Assembly (NCBI RefSeq): GCF_023702675.1
Contig: NZ_CP098478.1
Span: 1,302,001-1,366,000 of the forward strand
Direction: 5' to 3'
Origin: Acinetobacter sp. C26M
GTDB taxonomy: Bacteria; Pseudomonadota; Gammaproteobacteria; Pseudomonadales; Moraxellaceae
Length of the DNA: 64,000 nt
Below, piece after piece: positions 30,473 through 37,001 of the stretch. How positions within the stretch are numbered: position 1 is the first letter of the stretch; every line of letters begins with the position of its first letter. The notes beneath the pieces were generated by a model. It was given only the letters and a program-made list of their open reading frames with translations, did not search any database and was not told where the DNA came from. The position numbers were made by a program, and so were the translations under genes.

Positions 30473-31171
30473 ATGCGTCAACTACAACTGGATATAGAAC
30501 CTCAACTCGATGCTCGAATTAGTGATTTTTCGGGGCCGGGTTGGGGACCTGTGGTTGATGCAGTTAGACAGTTACATGCAGGCTTAGTCAGTCGTTTTTA
30601 TGTCTATGGTGGTGCTGGTACGGGTAAGAGTCATCTACTTTCAGCGATCTGTGATTCATATTTAGAATTGGGTCGACCTGCAATCAAAGTTTCTTTATTG
30701 GAATTATTAGATGCCCCAATTGAAGCAATTACCTCTTTAGAATTTTATGATTTAGTTGCGCTAGATGATATTGATTCGATTAGTGGAGTTCCGCATTGGC
30801 AGAAAGCGGTTTTTCATTTGATGAATAATCATGAAGGGCAATTGGTATTTTCATCTCGTGTTGCACCAATTGAGCTCAAGCTTGAATTACCAGATTTACA
30901 GTCAAGATTGACCCAGGCAGTCAGTGTCAAAGTACCTAATGGAAGCTCGTATATTGATCGGCAAGCCTTATTACAATCGGTGATGACGCGGCGTGGTATT
31001 CATTTTGATCAACAGATTGTTGATTATCTTTTAAGTAACGGACCACATCAGGCATCAATTTTATTACAAACACTTGCTCAGCTCGAAAAAATGTTAAAGG
31101 GCGAGAAAACTAAGCTTTCAAATACAACACTTAAGCAAATTTATGCGCTGATTGATGAATATCGCCAATAG
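30473..31171 (+). CDS. hda: DnaA regulatory inactivator Hda
   Basis: Hda is a DnaA-related AAA+ protein that, bound to the DNA-loaded sliding clamp, stimulates ATP hydrolysis by DnaA after initiation. In 232 residues it shows an N-terminal clamp-binding-like peptide (RQLQLDI), Walker A GGAGTGKSHLL, a Walker B-like LVALDDIDSI and the AAA+ lid region with ELPDLQSRLTQAV, while the DNA-binding domain of DnaA is absent. Length and neighbours agree: in E. coli hda also lies close to purMN. The start ATG has TTGAGGA about 20 bases upstream and AAGT closer; the family start supports it. Confidence 0.92.
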   Translation: MRQLQLDIEPQLDARISDFSGPGWGPVVDAVRQLHAGLVSRFYVYGGAGTGKSHLLSAICDSYLELGRPAIKVSLLELLDAPIEAITSLEFYDLVALDDIDSISGVPHWQKAVFHLMNNHEGQLVFSSRVAPIELKLELPDLQSRLTQAVSVKVPNGSSYIDRQALLQSVMTRRGIHFDQQIVDYLLSNGPHQASILLQTLAQLEKMLKGEKTKLSNTTLKQIYALIDEYRQ

Positions 31172-31284: not shown

Positions 31285-33180
31285 ATGCTCAAACGGACGC
31301 TTGCCTGCGCTTTATTTGCGATTACTGGACATGCATATTCTGCGGATATTCAAGTCACAACATTGGTTGATGAAGACAAAGATGATGCCGTTTGTTCATT
31401 ACGAGAAGCTGTTGAGTTTTTAAATAAAAGAAGCCAAAAAGAATTCGAAAATGGTTATCACGGATGTGGTAATAAAGATGCAAGCGCTAATATTCTTTTA
31501 AAGCGTGATCAAACCTATCAACTCAATTCTGCATTAAATATTAAAGCAGCTACAACAATTAGGACAGCAAGTAGTGACGACTTTAATGATAATAAGCGAG
31601 GACTAAATAATGCAACCATTAAAATGCAGGGTTCTGATCGCCTTTTTGTAATTGATGATGGTAGTGTTGAGAATGCTGTACTTTCTGTAAACTTTATTGA
31701 ATTAAACTTGCAAGGTGCTTCAGCTAAAATAAATGATGGTGGTTTAATTTTAAATCGAGAAGCTCTCATTATACAATATTCTCGTTTATCTGGTGGGTTT
31801 GCTAATAAAGGTGGGGCAATTTATAGTGCAGGTTTAATCTCTAATAGTCAGCCAACAGCTAGTTCAGTCACGATTAATAATAGTCTCTTGCAAAATAATA
31901 AAGCTGATCAAGGTGCTGTTATTTATACTGAGATGCCGTTGTATAATATTACTCAATCTGTTATTCGTGATAATGAAGGCGTGGCTGGTGAAAGTGGCGC
32001 ATTATTTTATGTTCAAACAGGTTTTCAAGATCCAACAATCGGTTCAAATATTTTAAAAAGTGGTGTTGCAGGGATTAAAAATAGTACAATTTTTCATAAT
32101 AAGGGTGGGTATGTTGCCAATATTCGCGAAGGTATGTTCTTCAATAATGTGACAGTGATTAAAAATGCGGCAGGATTGTATTTACAATCTCCGAAGTGGA
32201 AGGCTACAACCACTAATAATGGAGTGAGCACAGTAACCGAGGCTGTAAGTTCTTATATTTCAAATAGTATTATTGTTGCGAATGAGAAAAAAAATTGTAG
32301 CGCTGCTACAAATGATGAAACGGTCGTACAAAGTAATTTAACTGAACCTGAATGTGATCGGAATGCAAAAGACTCATTACCTAATTTTATGTTGGGGAAT
32401 AATAAATTAATAGTTGGTAATGTGGATGAAAAGCAGACGTGTGAGCTTCCATCGGCAGACGGTTTGTTGTGCCCTTACTATACACCAAAGGATCAAATGT
32501 TAGGCTTTTTTAAGCCACGCCTATTGATATCTTATAATAAATTATCTGACTCTTTAATTGTGAATAAAGGGCGAATTTATAGTGATGGCTCAACCTTTAG
32601 TTCAGCTAGCTGTGAGTCTGCTGATCAGCGTGGGAAAAGCCGAAGTGGTTATGACGAGCTTTGTGATCTGGGAGCATTAGAACTTATGGTTGACCGTAGT
32701 GATATTCAAATTGCTGGTCAAGATATTCTTTATGGGCAAATCGCAAAGTTTAGTATTGCGGCTAATCTACAAGATGGTGAATTATTAGATCCTGAATCAT
32801 GTAAGGTCATTTTAAAAAGAGAAACAAATTCAAAAGGACAACCATGGCAGCCAGGTTGTTTGGAGATAGTCCAAACACAAACCCCTTCTAAAGGTAAGCT
32901 AACAATTGATCAGGATGGCAATGTTACTTATGTACCAGATGGGGATTGGCATGGCGCGGATAAGTTTAATCTTAGAATAATGACGACAACCACTCGTTTC
33001 AATGATGAATCTAATTATTACATTACGGTTCCAACAACAATTGTTCAAGACCCACCAAATAATTTTCCAAGTAAAACCGTAAAGGTAAGTGGTGGAAGCC
33101 TTGGTGCTGGTGCAATTTTTGTATTACTCGGCTTGGTAAGATTGCGTCGCTTTAAATCAAAATTAGGGATGATGAGATGA
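31285..33180 (+). CDS. CSLREA-domain, GlyGly-CTERM surface protein (rhombotarget-type), first of two
   Basis: A predicted secreted protein of 631 residues. A signal peptide (residues 1-20, ending HAYSA) is followed by a CSLREA N-terminal domain (DDAVCSLREAVEFL), a long region with the alternating short hydrophobic and Asn/Gly pattern of a right-handed beta helix, the block SADQRGKSRS...CDLGALEL typical of such proteins, and a cadherin-like segment (VTYVPDGDWHGADKFNLRI). The end reads SGGSLGAGAIFVLLGLVRLRRFK: a Gly-rich site, one membrane helix and a basic cluster, the GlyGly-CTERM signal cut by rhombosortase before or during type II secretion. A strong ribosome site (GAAGGAGA) precedes the ATG. 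It overlaps the next gene by four bases. Known family: rhombotarget proteins of Acinetobacter; function unknown. Confidence 0.82.
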   Translation: MLKRTLACALFAITGHAYSADIQVTTLVDEDKDDAVCSLREAVEFLNKRSQKEFENGYHGCGNKDASANILLKRDQTYQLNSALNIKAATTIRTASSDDFNDNKRGLNNATIKMQGSDRLFVIDDGSVENAVLSVNFIELNLQGASAKINDGGLILNREALIIQYSRLSGGFANKGGAIYSAGLISNSQPTASSVTINNSLLQNNKADQGAVIYTEMPLYNITQSVIRDNEGVAGESGALFYVQTGFQDPTIGSNILKSGVAGIKNSTIFHNKGGYVANIREGMFFNNVTVIKNAAGLYLQSPKWKATTTNNGVSTVTEAVSSYISNSIIVANEKKNCSAATNDETVVQSNLTEPECDRNAKDSLPNFMLGNNKLIVGNVDEKQTCELPSADGLLCPYYTPKDQMLGFFKPRLLISYNKLSDSLIVNKGRIYSDGSTFSSASCESADQRGKSRSGYDELCDLGALELMVDRSDIQIAGQDILYGQIAKFSIAANLQDGELLDPESCKVILKRETNSKGQPWQPGCLEIVQTQTPSKGKLTIDQDGNVTYVPDGDWHGADKFNLRIMTTTTRFNDESNYYITVPTTIVQDPPNNFPSKTVKVSGGSLGAGAIFVLLGLVRLRRFKSKLGMMR

Positions 33181-35612
33181 AAAATTATAAAAAGACATTA
33201 TTGGCAACGATGGTTCTAGCAACAATGCCATTGATGGCAGCTGGAACGAGTGGTACACCAATTAAGGTTACAACGTTTGCTGATGAAGATAATGAGAATA
33301 TGAATGCCTGCTCGCTACGCGAGGCATTAATAACAGCTGAAACACGCAAATCATATGGTGGGTGTAGTGTTACAGATACGCTATCAACATCAAAAAAAGT
33401 TATTCAATTGGAGGCTGGTGTTTATACCTTAAAAAAAGAGTTAACACCGAATGTTGATGTTGCTATTTTAGGAGCAAGTCCATTAGATTGGCAGGAAAAG
33501 AGTGTTTTAACAAATGATGTTGTAATGCAATACCCAGCGCAAACAGCATTAAAAACAACCATTAAAGCAGAAAATTCACGTATTTTTAATACTACCTTTG
33601 GGGCAAAGGAATTATCTCTGAATAGCTTAATTTTATCAGGTGGGAACACTGCAGATCGAGGTGGGGCAATCTATGCAGGGGCGAATTTATTATTACAAAA
33701 TACACAGATTTTAAACTCAAAAGCAAAAGAAGGTGGGGCAATCTTTTTAGCAGGACCTTCAGCCTCTTTAACATTAACCAATAGTTTAATTCAAGGGAAT
33801 CAGGCTGAAATTGGTAGTGTATTATCAATGAGCTGTAAGAATGATTTAAGTTATTCGAAACGTGAGATCAATATTACAGCGAATAGCTTTATTGGCAATG
33901 GGGCTGATAGCTCAAGAAGTATGTTGGAGTTCTGTGGTGAGCCAAATGTAACTATGAGCGCAAATACAATTGCTAAGAATAGTGCAAATATAGCGTTTGG
34001 TAATTTAATTAAGTTTTCTGGTGATACTAGAGCAGGAACAGAACCTAATATTGATTCAAGTGTTTTAAGTAAGCTTAGTAGTTTAACGTTAACTAGTAAT
34101 ACAATTGTTGAAAATCAGTCATTTACAACGGTTTTATATGATAAATTAGGTACGAAAAAATTATACTTTAATGTTTTAGCATATAATGGTGATAATAATA
34201 CCTACGCTTGTCGTTATTTGTTAGGGGCTGCTGAGAAGCAGGAAAAGGTTAATTTAACAATCCAAAATAATGCTATTTCACGAACAGGTAGTAATAAATG
34301 TGATTTACCTGAAGAGTCATTAAAGGATAATACAACGAATATTGATGTAGGAGGAGTTTCTTTTGGGACATTGTTAGGCCCACTTCAAACTCCCTCAGCC
34401 TATACCGTTTTTTTACCAATCTATTATCCTAAGAACAATCACACAAAAACAGATTTAGTTGATATCGATAAACCAGGATGTACTCCTACAGATCAGCGTG
34501 GTTTGGCGAGGATCACAGAAGGGACACTCTTTTTCGATCCTGATGCACGTAATAGTTGTGATATTGGTGCCATAGAGTTGATGAAGTTTACAGCGGGCGA
34601 TATACAGGATTTAAGGAATACTTCGCTTAAGAAGTTGATTTCAGAATATCAAGCACAGTATGATTTCTATGACGATTTGGTGAAAAACCCGAATGATCCT
34701 GATTTGGTAACGTATTATAAATCTCGTGTAGCGCAATATAAGAGATTATTGGAAGGGACGAAAGCAAATTTCAAATATCGTGCTATTTATCTCGACCTAA
34801 GTACAATACCATTGCCTGAAGAAATAGAGCAGGCTGATGGATCACATAAGCTAAAGTTTTTTAATCAGGATGATTATAATATTAAGGTTGAAGCGTTAGG
34901 GACGGGTTTAATCAGTGACTCAGTGATGCATATTCAACCAGATGAAGGCCTAGTATGTAATTGGAACTCAAATTTACAGCAGGTCATTATTTATCGTAAA
35001 GATGATAAGATTACACAGGCTGGTGACCAAAGTTTCTGTAAATACACGCTTACATCTAAATTGGATTCTAATGTCACCTCATCGGGGTTGTTGAGCGCAA
35101 CTTTTGTCAATATTGCACCTGTAGCAACAGACACATCTATAACGTTTAAATATCGCGAGAAACAGAGATTAAGCCTTAATTTGTTGAGTTTTGCTAATGA
35201 TGCTGGCGATACTGGTGAGGGTGGTTCTGGGCCAGAAAAAAATCCTAATAAACCTCAGTTTTGGAAAAATAAAGATGGTGTAGAATTGCCGATCCGTTTA
35301 ACGAATGTACCTAGAGATCTGACTATCTCTGCTGATCGCCAAGGAGCCTGTCCTGAACCTAACGAAAAAGAAACATGTTACGGTGGGAATATCTACGTTC
35401 AGGAATTAAATGCTTTTAACCCATTTAATTTCGATTTTAAATATCAAGTTTATGATGCAGATGCAGAGTCATCAAATGTGGCAACAGTCAGAACAATTAA
35501 TACGGCTACAACCACTGATGATACTCGTCCTGCCGGTGGTGGTGGTAGCTTAGGTTTTTATTCTATATTTGGTTTATTGGGGTTACTGGCTTATCGTCGT
35601 TTTAAAAAATAA
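33177..35612 (+). CDS. CSLREA-domain, GlyGly-CTERM surface protein (rhombotarget-type), second of two
   Basis: A larger paralogue of the gene before it, 811 residues, sharing an ATGA overlap with it. It has a signal peptide (to about residue 22, MPLMAAG), the CSLREA motif in NACSLREALITAE, a beta-helix region rich in TLTNSLI / AGANLLLQNTQIL repeats, the block TDQRGLARI...CDIGAIELM, and then a C-terminal part of about 330 residues with a coiled-coil-like helical stretch (LKKLISEYQAQYDFYDD). It ends in AGGGGSLGFYSIFGLLGLLAYRRFKK, a textbook GlyGly-CTERM: Gly-rich site, helix, basic end. The tail should be removed by a rhombosortase; the matching protease gene is not in this window. Likely surface-exposed or released; adhesion or binding roles are only a guess. 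Confidence 0.85.
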   Translation: MKNYKKTLLATMVLATMPLMAAGTSGTPIKVTTFADEDNENMNACSLREALITAETRKSYGGCSVTDTLSTSKKVIQLEAGVYTLKKELTPNVDVAILGASPLDWQEKSVLTNDVVMQYPAQTALKTTIKAENSRIFNTTFGAKELSLNSLILSGGNTADRGGAIYAGANLLLQNTQILNSKAKEGGAIFLAGPSASLTLTNSLIQGNQAEIGSVLSMSCKNDLSYSKREINITANSFIGNGADSSRSMLEFCGEPNVTMSANTIAKNSANIAFGNLIKFSGDTRAGTEPNIDSSVLSKLSSLTLTSNTIVENQSFTTVLYDKLGTKKLYFNVLAYNGDNNTYACRYLLGAAEKQEKVNLTIQNNAISRTGSNKCDLPEESLKDNTTNIDVGGVSFGTLLGPLQTPSAYTVFLPIYYPKNNHTKTDLVDIDKPGCTPTDQRGLARITEGTLFFDPDARNSCDIGAIELMKFTAGDIQDLRNTSLKKLISEYQAQYDFYDDLVKNPNDPDLVTYYKSRVAQYKRLLEGTKANFKYRAIYLDLSTIPLPEEIEQADGSHKLKFFNQDDYNIKVEALGTGLISDSVMHIQPDEGLVCNWNSNLQQVIIYRKDDKITQAGDQSFCKYTLTSKLDSNVTSSGLLSATFVNIAPVATDTSITFKYREKQRLSLNLLSFANDAGDTGEGGSGPEKNPNKPQFWKNKDGVELPIRLTNVPRDLTISADRQGACPEPNEKETCYGGNIYVQELNAFNPFNFDFKYQVYDADAESSNVATVRTINTATTTDDTRPAGGGGSLGFYSIFGLLGLLAYRRFKK

Positions 35613-35626
35613 GTAGACCAAAGAGA

Positions 35627-35657
35627 AAATAGCGCCTAAAAGGCGCTATTTTTTTAT
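35627..35657. terminator. Bidirectional terminator after the CSLREA genes
   Basis: AATAGCGCC (35628-35636) pairs with GGCGCTATT (35642-35650), with A residues before and eight T residues after. It separates the CSLREA pair from the convergent sigma-factor operon. Confidence 0.9.
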
Positions 35658-35673: not shown

Positions 35674-36063
35674 TTAATGTTCAGCATATTTGCTGAGATA
35701 TTCTTCTCTAATGTTTACACGTTCTTCAGTGCTAGCATTGAGCATACGTTTACGTAAAGTATTGCGTTCTTGAGTACTCATTTTTTGCCAAACATCACGC
35801 ATTTTCTGCTTTTCGTCTTCAGGCAGTTGTGTAAACCATTCCATCCGTTGTTGTAGTTGTGAGCTCTGATTGGTCGGAATTTCCTTCAATGTCTGATAGC
35901 GTTTAATTAAAACGCGTTGCTCTTCTGGTGATAAGTCATCCCAAGCTTCTTCTGTTGCCGCTTTATTTGGTTTGGAGAATACCCAAAAGCGTTCTGAACC
36001 TGCAAAACTTGTTTGTAATAAGCCGAGTGTACACACAACAAGTGCTAATTTTTTAGCTGCCAT
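35674..36063 (-). CDS. DUF3106-type periplasmic protein of the sigma operon
   Basis: Third gene of the sigma-factor operon. From the ATG at 36063 the product is 129 residues with a signal peptide (MAAKKLALVVCTLGLLQTSFAG) and a charged helical mature part with repeats of the type W..LSPEEQRVL..RY, W..TQLPEDEKQKMRDVW and STQERNTLRKRM, which is the DUF3106 pattern and recalls CpxP/Spy-like helical periplasmic sensors. A GTG six codons upstream is possible. It overlaps the previous gene by 11 bases. A role in sensing or in holding the membrane anti-sigma protein is a reasonable inference; I recall that an Acinetobacter-specific sigma factor (SigAb) has two downstream anti-sigma genes (aabA, aabB), and this would be the second. 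Confidence 0.75.
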   Translation of the reverse strand: MAAKKLALVVCTLGLLQTSFAGSERFWVFSKPNKAATEEAWDDLSPEEQRVLIKRYQTLKEIPTNQSSQLQQRMEWFTQLPEDEKQKMRDVWQKMSTQERNTLRKRMLNASTEERVNIREEYLSKYAEH

Positions 36064-36376
36064 GTGGAACTTTATCCTCACCTAAGACCAATAACATTTC
36101 CATATCTTCAACCATTTGTGGCGAAAGTTTTGGATTCACGACAACTTGGTTCTGTGGTTGATCAGCCAATTGCAGAGAGCTAGGCAGAACAACAATTCCC
36201 ATAATTGCGGCAGCGAAGGCAAAACCTGTCATTTTCCAAATACTGTAATAAGAAGTTGGCTTCTTTTGGACAGTATCAAGAACATGATTCATCACTAACA
36301 TTTTATTGCGATGTTGTTCTTTCGCAAGCTGGTCAAGTTTGGAAGTCACATGTTTAGTGAACTCATCTTTTTTCAT
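36053..36376 (-). CDS. Single-pass membrane protein, probable anti-sigma factor
   Basis: A 107-residue protein with a charged cytoplasmic N-terminal half (MKKDEFTKHVTSKLDQLAKEQ), one membrane helix (about residues 47-66, WKMTGFAFAAAIMGIVVLPSS) and a short periplasmic end. It resembles the DUF3619 type. This layout, and its position directly after an ECF sigma gene with a 14-base overlap, is that of a membrane anti-sigma factor that holds the sigma protein at the inner membrane until a signal arrives. It lacks an obvious zinc-binding (ZAS) cysteine motif. Ribosome site GGAGGA is excellent. Function inferred from context. Confidence 0.72.
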   Translation of the reverse strand: MKKDEFTKHVTSKLDQLAKEQHRNKMLVMNHVLDTVQKKPTSYYSIWKMTGFAFAAAIMGIVVLPSSLQLADQPQNQVVVNPKLSPQMVEDMEMLLVLGEDKVPHGS

Positions 36377-37001
36377 CTGATGATCCTCCTGTATGTGGGT
36401 TTAAATGCTCTAGAGCAATTCTGAGCCCCTGAATTGCGCGGTGGTAATGTGTTTTAACACTGCCTTCACTGCAATCCATAATTTGTGCTGTAGTCATTGT
36501 GTCAAAACCCTCCCACGCTCTTAGCATAAATGCTTGTTGTTGGCGGACGGGTAATTGATTAATTGCAGCTTGAATTTCCTCCATAGTGACTTCTTGATTA
36601 AGAAACTCAAACGGATTAGGAGTTGATTCATCGACAACATCAATAATTTGTTCATCATCATCTAAACTAATTTTTTTAAATAATGAAAATGGATTGGCAC
36701 GACGGGCTTCTTTGCGTCGCCAGTCCTGAAGTTTATTATTTAAGATTGTATAGAACAGGGGATACCATTCTTCTGTGCTTTTATCAGCATATGACTTATG
36801 CAATGAAATAAATGCTTCTTGCACTAAATCCATGGCAATGCCTTGTTGTCCCTGAGTGGCGCTTTCCATCATAACCAAGGCACGACCTGTTACGTCTTGC
36901 ATAAAAAAACGCAGACGTTGTTCAACAGTACTACGATCGGTACTGTTTTCAGTTCGAGCCTGTTTCGGTGCTAAATCCATAGAGATGGAAAATCCTGTCA
37001 T
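36363..37001 (-). CDS. ECF-type RNA polymerase sigma factor (SigAb-like)
   Basis: A 212-residue sigma-70 family protein with the two domains of ECF sigma factors: region 2 at about residues 30-97 (DLVQEAFISLHKSY is the 2.2 core-binding helix; LDDWRR-like LQDWRRKEARR is 2.4) and region 4 at about 148-205 (INQLPVRQQQAFMLRAWEGFDTMTTAQIMDCSEGSVKTHYHRA, a clear helix-turn-helix). The N terminus is extended by about 25 residues. It heads a three-gene operon with a membrane protein and a DUF3106 protein. The layout matches the Acinetobacter-specific SigAb module as I remember it, where the sigma factor is toxic if not restrained. Start ATG has GGTGGG five bases upstream. Confidence 0.88.
   Translation of the reverse strand: MTGFSISMDLAPKQARTENSTDRSTVEQRLRFFMQDVTGRALVMMESATQGQQGIAMDLVQEAFISLHKSYADKSTEEWYPLFYTILNNKLQDWRRKEARRANPFSLFKKISLDDDEQIIDVVDESTPNPFEFLNQEVTMEEIQAAINQLPVRQQQAFMLRAWEGFDTMTTAQIMDCSEGSVKTHYHRAIQGLRIALEHLNPHTGGSSDEKR

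Follow-up and report, generated by a model that had tools for sequence, protein, structure and literature searches.

In the serine protease VesB of Vibrio cholerae, one of six GlyGly proteins in that species, rhombosortase cuts the C-terminal site so that its second Gly becomes exposed, and this Gly is then joined to a glycerophosphoethanolamine-containing moiety before export by the type II secretion system (T2SS) (PMC6219818; papers are cited here by PMC number for excerpts of their text). Rhombotarget A (RbtA) of Acinetobacter baumannii has been crystallised as a design target, and the excerpts of that work dealing with RbtA state no function or activity for it (PMC12643943). Haft and Varghese reported in 2011 two GlyGly proteins in each of five Acinetobacter genomes (PMC3237569), and their table gives two for Acinetobacter sp. 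ADP1. Here we analyse a pair of overlapping genes, A and B, in a 64,000-nucleotide stretch of the genome of Acinetobacter sp. C26M (contig NZ_CP098478.1, positions 1,302,001 to 1,366,000; hereafter the window). Most probably, this locus is a genus-typical RbtA pair, the products of which are cut by one distantly encoded rhombosortase, exported by the T2SS and kept on the surface and on vesicles. InvL of A. baumannii is also a T2SS-dependent Acinetobacter surface protein, but unlike A and B it has a predicted N-terminal lipoprotein signal, and no GlyGly tail is mentioned in the excerpts searched (PMC9245377).

Gene A is RbtA, a named family already known from crystal structures. Its product scores 945.3 bits against the RbtA model TIGR04212 (cut-off 295) over model positions 1-605 of 605 and is a full-length member of the family, while its N-terminal domain (residues 19-468) is related to the A. 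baumannii Rhombotarget A entries 9CDU and 9CDV of the PDB (484.6 bits). The order of parts in A is signal peptide, CSLREA domain, beta-helix, immunoglobulin (Ig)/cadherin-like C-terminal domain and GlyGly-CTERM tail; Big_9 matches residues 527-565 with 24.4 bits (cut-off 23.6). A differs from Rhombotarget A in six additional C-terminal residues, which overlap B and are specific to this lineage. The structure model of A, built from an alignment of 37 close sequences, is mediocre (mean predicted local distance difference test score, pLDDT, of 67.7, below 50 for residues 360-472), and its comparison with the PDB gained little beyond 9CDU and 9CDV.

Judged from its sequence, B is a paralogue of RbtA and not RbtA itself, with a common beta-helix fold, other C-terminal domains and a GlyGly-CTERM tail of its own. 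TIGR04212 gives B 70 bits, below the cut-off of 295, with the best stretch in the N-terminal part, and no NCBIfam equivalog scores above its cut-off for B. B belongs among the CSLREA domain-containing proteins, as NCBI labels them, that are encoded beside rbtA. Aligned by BLASTP, A and B are 31% identical at the N-terminus (208 columns) and have 15 of 22 tail residues in common, and a profile comparison of B 27-461 with A 20-469 (probability 99.6%, E 2e-23) extends the homology over the whole beta-helix. The predicted fold of B consists of a signal peptide, a beta-helix (about 27-470), a helical hairpin (484-530), two beta-sandwich (Ig-like) domains (about 537-776) and the GlyGly-CTERM tail. 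A hydrophobic N-terminal signal is present in both proteins, both exceed the cut-off of 25 bits for the CSLREA model TIGR04214 (A 39.8 bits, B 39.6 bits), and the choice-of-anchor Q model matches the DQRG blocks of both weakly (19.1 bits, below its cut-off of 25). The first-pass annotation of the window had described two overlapping genes, each with signal, CSLREA domain, beta-helix, DQRG...CDxGAxEL block and a tail of Gly-rich site, helix and basic end, and the analysis confirms two plus-strand open reading frames (ORFs) with all of these features (Table 1). Two B-like proteins (P0200 and P0217) are encoded by GAK29_04927 and GAK29_04929 in a metagenome-assembled genome of A. bereziniae, which suggests a local duplication of B.

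Both tails consist of a Gly-rich site, a hydrophobic helix and a basic end, with the helix predicted at residues 607-628 in A (pLDDT below 50 there) and 794-810 in B. When the whole genome was scanned with the GlyGly-CTERM model TIGR03501 (cut-off 15.5 bits) at E<=10, the only matches were A, with 16.0 bits, and B, with 22.1 bits; the same scan gave matches in 11 of 14 control genomes, one of them above the cut-off. A stricter scan at E<=0.001 found nothing, the tails of A and B included, and is not evidence of absence. When the proteins were searched with hmmscan, B scored 15.7 bits. Across the genus, 94 of the 98 A tails that could be read have Gly-Gly and a basic end, as do 97 of the 98 such B tails; these counts omit the prematurely ended A of genome G069 and the contig-truncated B of G019; in G086 the end of B is out of frame.

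The enzyme expected to act on such tails is encoded elsewhere in the genome. A whole-genome search gave three rhombosortase matches, one of them above the cut-off (146 bits against 84; C1:450180-450629) in an ORF of 193 amino acids about 0.88 Mb from A. Its motifs AYAGLSGVLHG and TEAHLIGAIGG (GLSG, TEAHL) agree with the residues around Ser102 and His160 in V. cholerae RssP, as translated from the primers given in PMC6219818. The T2SS, judged from its secretin GspD, is present as well (546.1 bits, cut-off 351.35). The first-pass annotation correctly noted that the 64 kb hold no rhombosortase, as none of the three matches falls there. It had proposed a genome search for rhombosortase and T2SS genes, with a missing rhombosortase as refutation; an enzyme and the secretin were found, and this genome-based refutation fails. 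It had also noted that rhombotarget genes often lie next to their rhombosortase, but that the absence of such a neighbour is odd finds no support here. RbtA and rhombosortase share a contig in 32 of the 98 genomes in which both were placed, and their separation is at least 405 kb in all 32 (measured along the contig; 11, including all those in which wrap-around might make a difference, were also checked as circles). No rhombosortase match was found inside the pair loci, of about 8 kb each, fetched from 99 genomes. In addition, multi-target genomes have been described as lacking a target beside the enzyme, with the exceptions of Comamonas testosteroni and Cupriavidus metallidurans (PMC3237569). 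Therefore, the lack of a neighbouring rhombosortase is the normal state. An unusual processing route, considered because of this lack, was rejected since the genome has an enzyme and distance is the rule.

Published work on relatives bears on export and location. M215_02250 and M215_02255 of A. nosocomialis M2 belong to the T2SS-dependent secretome under the label 'GlyGly-CTERM and rhombosortase' (PMC4713064). These two are more likely the A/B pair than a target with its enzyme, because none of the genomes checked has the enzyme next to a target and 'Rhombosortase' is itself the UniRef name of a cluster of RbtA. That cluster (P0304) probably carries a misannotation which has passed into the secretome papers. 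A review likewise lists rhombotarget A and 'rhombosortase' as T2SS substrates (PMC5861075), and a CSLREA protein is reduced in the supernatant of a gspD mutant of UPAB1 (PMC9245377). In vesicles of ATCC 19606 without lipooligosaccharide (LOS), RbtA (HMPREF0010_02134, log2 -3.99) and HMPREF0010_02135 (log2 -3.36) are two among 17 proteins that fall (PMC11395390). The label of HMPREF0010_02135 is also borne by an RbtA homologue (P0291). We take this label to be one that the GlyGly model formerly had. With a rhombosortase and GspD in the genome and orthologues that depend on the T2SS (PMC4713064, PMC9245377, PMC5861075), the suggestion of the first-pass annotation that both proteins follow the rhombosortase and T2SS route appears likely.

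By analogy with these relatives, A and B would be exported through Sec and then held in the inner membrane by the C-terminal helix, where the single rhombosortase encoded elsewhere in the chromosome would cut both at Gly-Gly. The new C-terminus would probably be transferred to an ethanolamine lipid, as in VesB of V. cholerae, and both proteins would then pass the outer membrane via the T2SS and remain, presumably lipid-anchored, on the surface and on vesicles. Here cleavage and lipid attachment are modelled on V. cholerae, and T2SS dependence and vesicle location on the Acinetobacter relatives. The locus resembles the GlyGly proteins of V. cholerae and RssP in tail design, enzyme family and Ser/His motifs, and VesB likewise has an Ig-fold domain before its tail and uses the T2SS (PMC6219818). 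It differs in that VesB is a serine protease in a set of six, whereas here there are two beta-helix proteins as far as the GlyGly-CTERM model sees. Since these two appear to be the only substrates in the genome, the pair, the enzyme and the secretion system would behave as one module.

The locus is conserved across the genus, and the names of proteins matched in database searches place it in Acinetobacter. A scan covered 119 genomes, and about 8 kb around the pair were fetched from 99 of them besides the window. RbtA is present in 101 of the 119 genomes, B in 99, rhombosortase in 100 and GspD above its cut-off in 106. The AI-2E-permease-like gene, hda and A occur in one order in all 99 fetched loci (with a fragment of A in G117), whereas purM and B are each found in 98, one contig ending before purM, and B adjoins RbtA wherever B is present in these loci. 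The names of these flanking genes (Hda, AI-2E-permease-like, purM) are partly our assumption. Of the 99 reads of A, 97 passed an intact-length filter. In the 18 genomes without RbtA and B, AI-2E and hda still stand beside purM in 16, and at these otherwise conserved sites the pair was either lost or never acquired. In the family, 60 of 149 genomes (40 above the cut-off) and 11 of 16 genera have a match to the RbtA model at E<=1e-6, and 60 of 149 genomes and 10 of 16 genera have rhombosortase, the genomes being largely the same; G121 has the enzyme without RbtA. That the locus is decaying or horizontally acquired and without function, as the broken or fragmentary A of G069, G115 and G117 and the broken B of G086 might suggest, is contradicted by the same flanks throughout, the intact length of nearly all A reads and the spread of RbtA over the family, and is scarcely credible. 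Among these single broken copies, G069 (L093) has a stop in A, G086 (L109) a shifted end of B and G117 (L132) a fragment of A without B; relatives of these three genomes carry intact copies.

What is new here is the co-occurrence of pair and rhombosortase across genomes, which is suggestive. Three genomes were dropped for low completeness (G030, 65%; G110, 64%; G113, 80%, the last having everything present), leaving 116. G117 was scored as lacking the pair, and G069, G086 and G115, with a broken A or B, as having it. Pair and rhombosortase are both present in 97 genomes and both absent from 17, two have the enzyme alone and none has the pair alone (Fisher's test, 1.7e-18, kinship ignored). If GspD is included, 96 genomes have all three, 12 have none, five have GspD alone, two (G093 and G117) lack the pair alone and one (G115) has pair and enzyme without GspD above the cut-off. 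This one is the only genome among the 13 without GspD above the cut-off that keeps the pair, and its RbtA is in pieces; such fragmentation in G115 (L130) is what one would expect if the gene decayed once the exporter was lost. A tree of three neighbouring proteins requires at least eight changes for the pair, six for the enzyme and five for GspD. The association of pair and enzyme is therefore strong in count and, by number of events, only suggestive.

Several observations weigh against the reading of the locus as a processed and displayed RbtA pair. Once kinship is taken into account, the co-loss is no more than suggestive: among six independent pairs on the tree, four are concordant, none is opposite and two show no difference (p 0.125). 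G093 retains rhombosortase and GspD without the pair, the dropped genome G110 has A and B but lacks the enzyme, and G030, also dropped, has a piece of A at a contig end without B or enzyme; outside the genus, G125 (99% complete) has RbtA above the cut-off and no rhombosortase. The tail of A scores 11.0 bits by hmmscan, under the cut-off of 15.5, and in four of the 98 readable A tails (G003, G010, G027, G079) VGS replaces Gly-Gly. The identification of HMPREF0010_02135 with B leans on an adjacent locus tag and an old label. Processing and surface display in Acinetobacter sp. C26M are argued from relatives, and lyases and epimerases are found beside an adhesin among the PDB neighbours of the beta-helix, so that an enzymatic role is possible. 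The weak score of the A tail, together with its greater length in the window lineage than in relatives, would fit tails that stay unprocessed and proteins that remain anchored in the inner membrane. This is very improbable, as orthologues are found in T2SS-dependent secretomes and in vesicles and the genome encodes a rhombosortase with both Ser and His motifs.

Two of these cases deserve a further remark. The VGS tails belong to loci L036, L043, L057 and L102, where B keeps GGG, and G010 stands apart from the other three on the tree. G093 (L174, C1:488131-488571) is a complete single-contig genome with rhombosortase and GspD and without A or B; by eye, none of the seven ORFs of at least 100 amino acids within 6 kb of its rhombosortase has a GlyGly-type tail, a view confined to this neighbourhood as no genome-wide target search was made. 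The enzyme of G093 may be an orphan or may have targets elsewhere in the genome.

The surface protein RbtA, from a genus of major importance as a hospital pathogen, has already been taken up as a design target and has a crystal structure, while its tandem paralogue B is hardly mentioned in the literature excerpts examined. Because the pair is retained or lost almost en bloc with the distant rhombosortase and the T2SS, the locus provides a small model, with two clients, of how rhombosortase processes its targets. It is conceivable, and we put it forward with considerable doubt, that the rhombosortase is a two-client enzyme kept just for A and B, and that A and B form one LOS-retained surface unit, anchored by lipid at both C-termini in the outer leaflet, which is lost with the enzyme or the T2SS. 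If so, RbtA, which has so far been studied alone, would have B as its other half, and the acceptor lipid of rhombosortases could be approached by simple genetics through the A/B locus.

Table 1. Features of the A/B locus and its left flank (positions in the window).
Feature	Position	Strand	Basis
Hda-like upstream neighbour, left flank of the pair	30473..31171	+	in 99/99 fetched loci
Gene A, rhombotarget A (RbtA), 631 aa	31285..33180	+	TIGR04212, PDB and Big_9 matches
CSLREA domain of A, residues 22-47	31348..31425	+	profile match
DQRG...CDLGALEL block of A, end of beta-helix domain	32623..32685	+	translation
GlyGly-CTERM tail of A (GGS, helix, RRF)	33088..33153	+	TIGR03501
Six extra C-terminal codons of A (KLGMMR)	33160..33177	+	junction comparison, 7 close relatives
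AGGGA, Shine-Dalgarno-like site of B, within the 3' end of A	33165..33169	+	trimer test
ATGA overlap of the A stop with the B start	33177..33180	+	ORF coordinates
Gene B, CSLREA-domain protein, 811 aa	33177..35612	+	ORF, paralogue of RbtA
CSLREA domain of B, residues 29-54	33261..33338	+	profile match
DQRG...CDIGAIEL block of B	34491..34580	+	translation
GlyGly-CTERM tail of B (GGGS, helix, RRF)	35538..35603	+	TIGR03501
Intrinsic-terminator-like hairpin after B, 15 pairs and T run	35623..35655	+	hairpin scan

The overlap of A and B had led the first-pass annotation to propose two partners made in a fixed ratio by translational coupling. Analysis of the junction reveals that an ATGA overlap is present in two of 99 genomes with A and B (the window and G101), that a gap of 3-27 nt separates the genes in 96, and that the spacing in the remaining one, G069, is unmeasurable due to the internal stop in A. 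In seven close relatives A terminates with RRFKS, 14-16 nt upstream of B, whereas in the window the frame of A runs six codons past this end and through the AGGGA of B; with nine residues beyond the last RR, it is the longest among the 92 A tails having RR. The overlap in the window thus looks like a recent, lineage-specific loss of the A stop, and as a conserved coupling device it was rejected. A fixed ratio from translational coupling is unsupported for the same reason. All 99 genomes have a Shine-Dalgarno-like trimer 5-16 nt ahead of B, against a background of 0.31 per position in the pair region of the window; a stricter four-base test, positive in 54 of 99, was judged too strict and the trimer test was used instead. 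By a simple test, 75 of 98 genomes have a terminator-like hairpin downstream of B. The site before B and the terminator after it support a two-gene transcript with separate starts, from which a fixed ratio does not follow, and A and B are probably transcribed together in this way. A promoter scan, with 22 sites where 17.7 were expected, was not used.

An obligate heteromeric surface complex of A and B with such a fixed ratio is possible but doubtful. The overlap in the window, the short spacing in the other genomes and the fall of both proteins in LOS-deficient vesicles (PMC11395390) are in keeping with it, as is the fact that no intact gene of the pair occurs in the 119 genomes without a piece of the other, save in the incomplete G030 and for the A fragment of G117. 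However, the overlap is rare, close relatives have a gap, B has its own Shine-Dalgarno-like site in every genome, and adjacent genes can be lost together without forming a complex. As an A-B interface we considered the hydrophobic patch that served for macrocycle design on A. baumannii RbtA (PMC12643943) and rejected it: its conservation is 0.29 against an average of 0.58 (97 sequences), and a patch less conserved than average does not qualify as a conserved interface. In the literature excerpts searched, neither an A-B complex nor an Acinetobacter rhombosortase mutant is described.

As for the role of A and B on the surface, glycan-binding or adhesive beta-helix stalks seem most likely, a guess weighted towards binding rather than catalysis. 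Besides the lyases and epimerases, the PDB neighbours of the beta-helix fold include an adhesin, which does not exclude families outside this list, and A and B could be surface enzymes of lyase or epimerase type that cut or modify surface polysaccharide. This we hold to be unlikely, since the beta-helix part of B has no invariant His or Lys (67 sequences), no activity of RbtA is reported in the excerpts examined, and a common fold proves no function.

Downstream of the pair, minus-strand genes at 35674-37001 of the window converge on it: a sigma-factor-like gene and two small ones, which look like an anti-sigma/periplasmic set.
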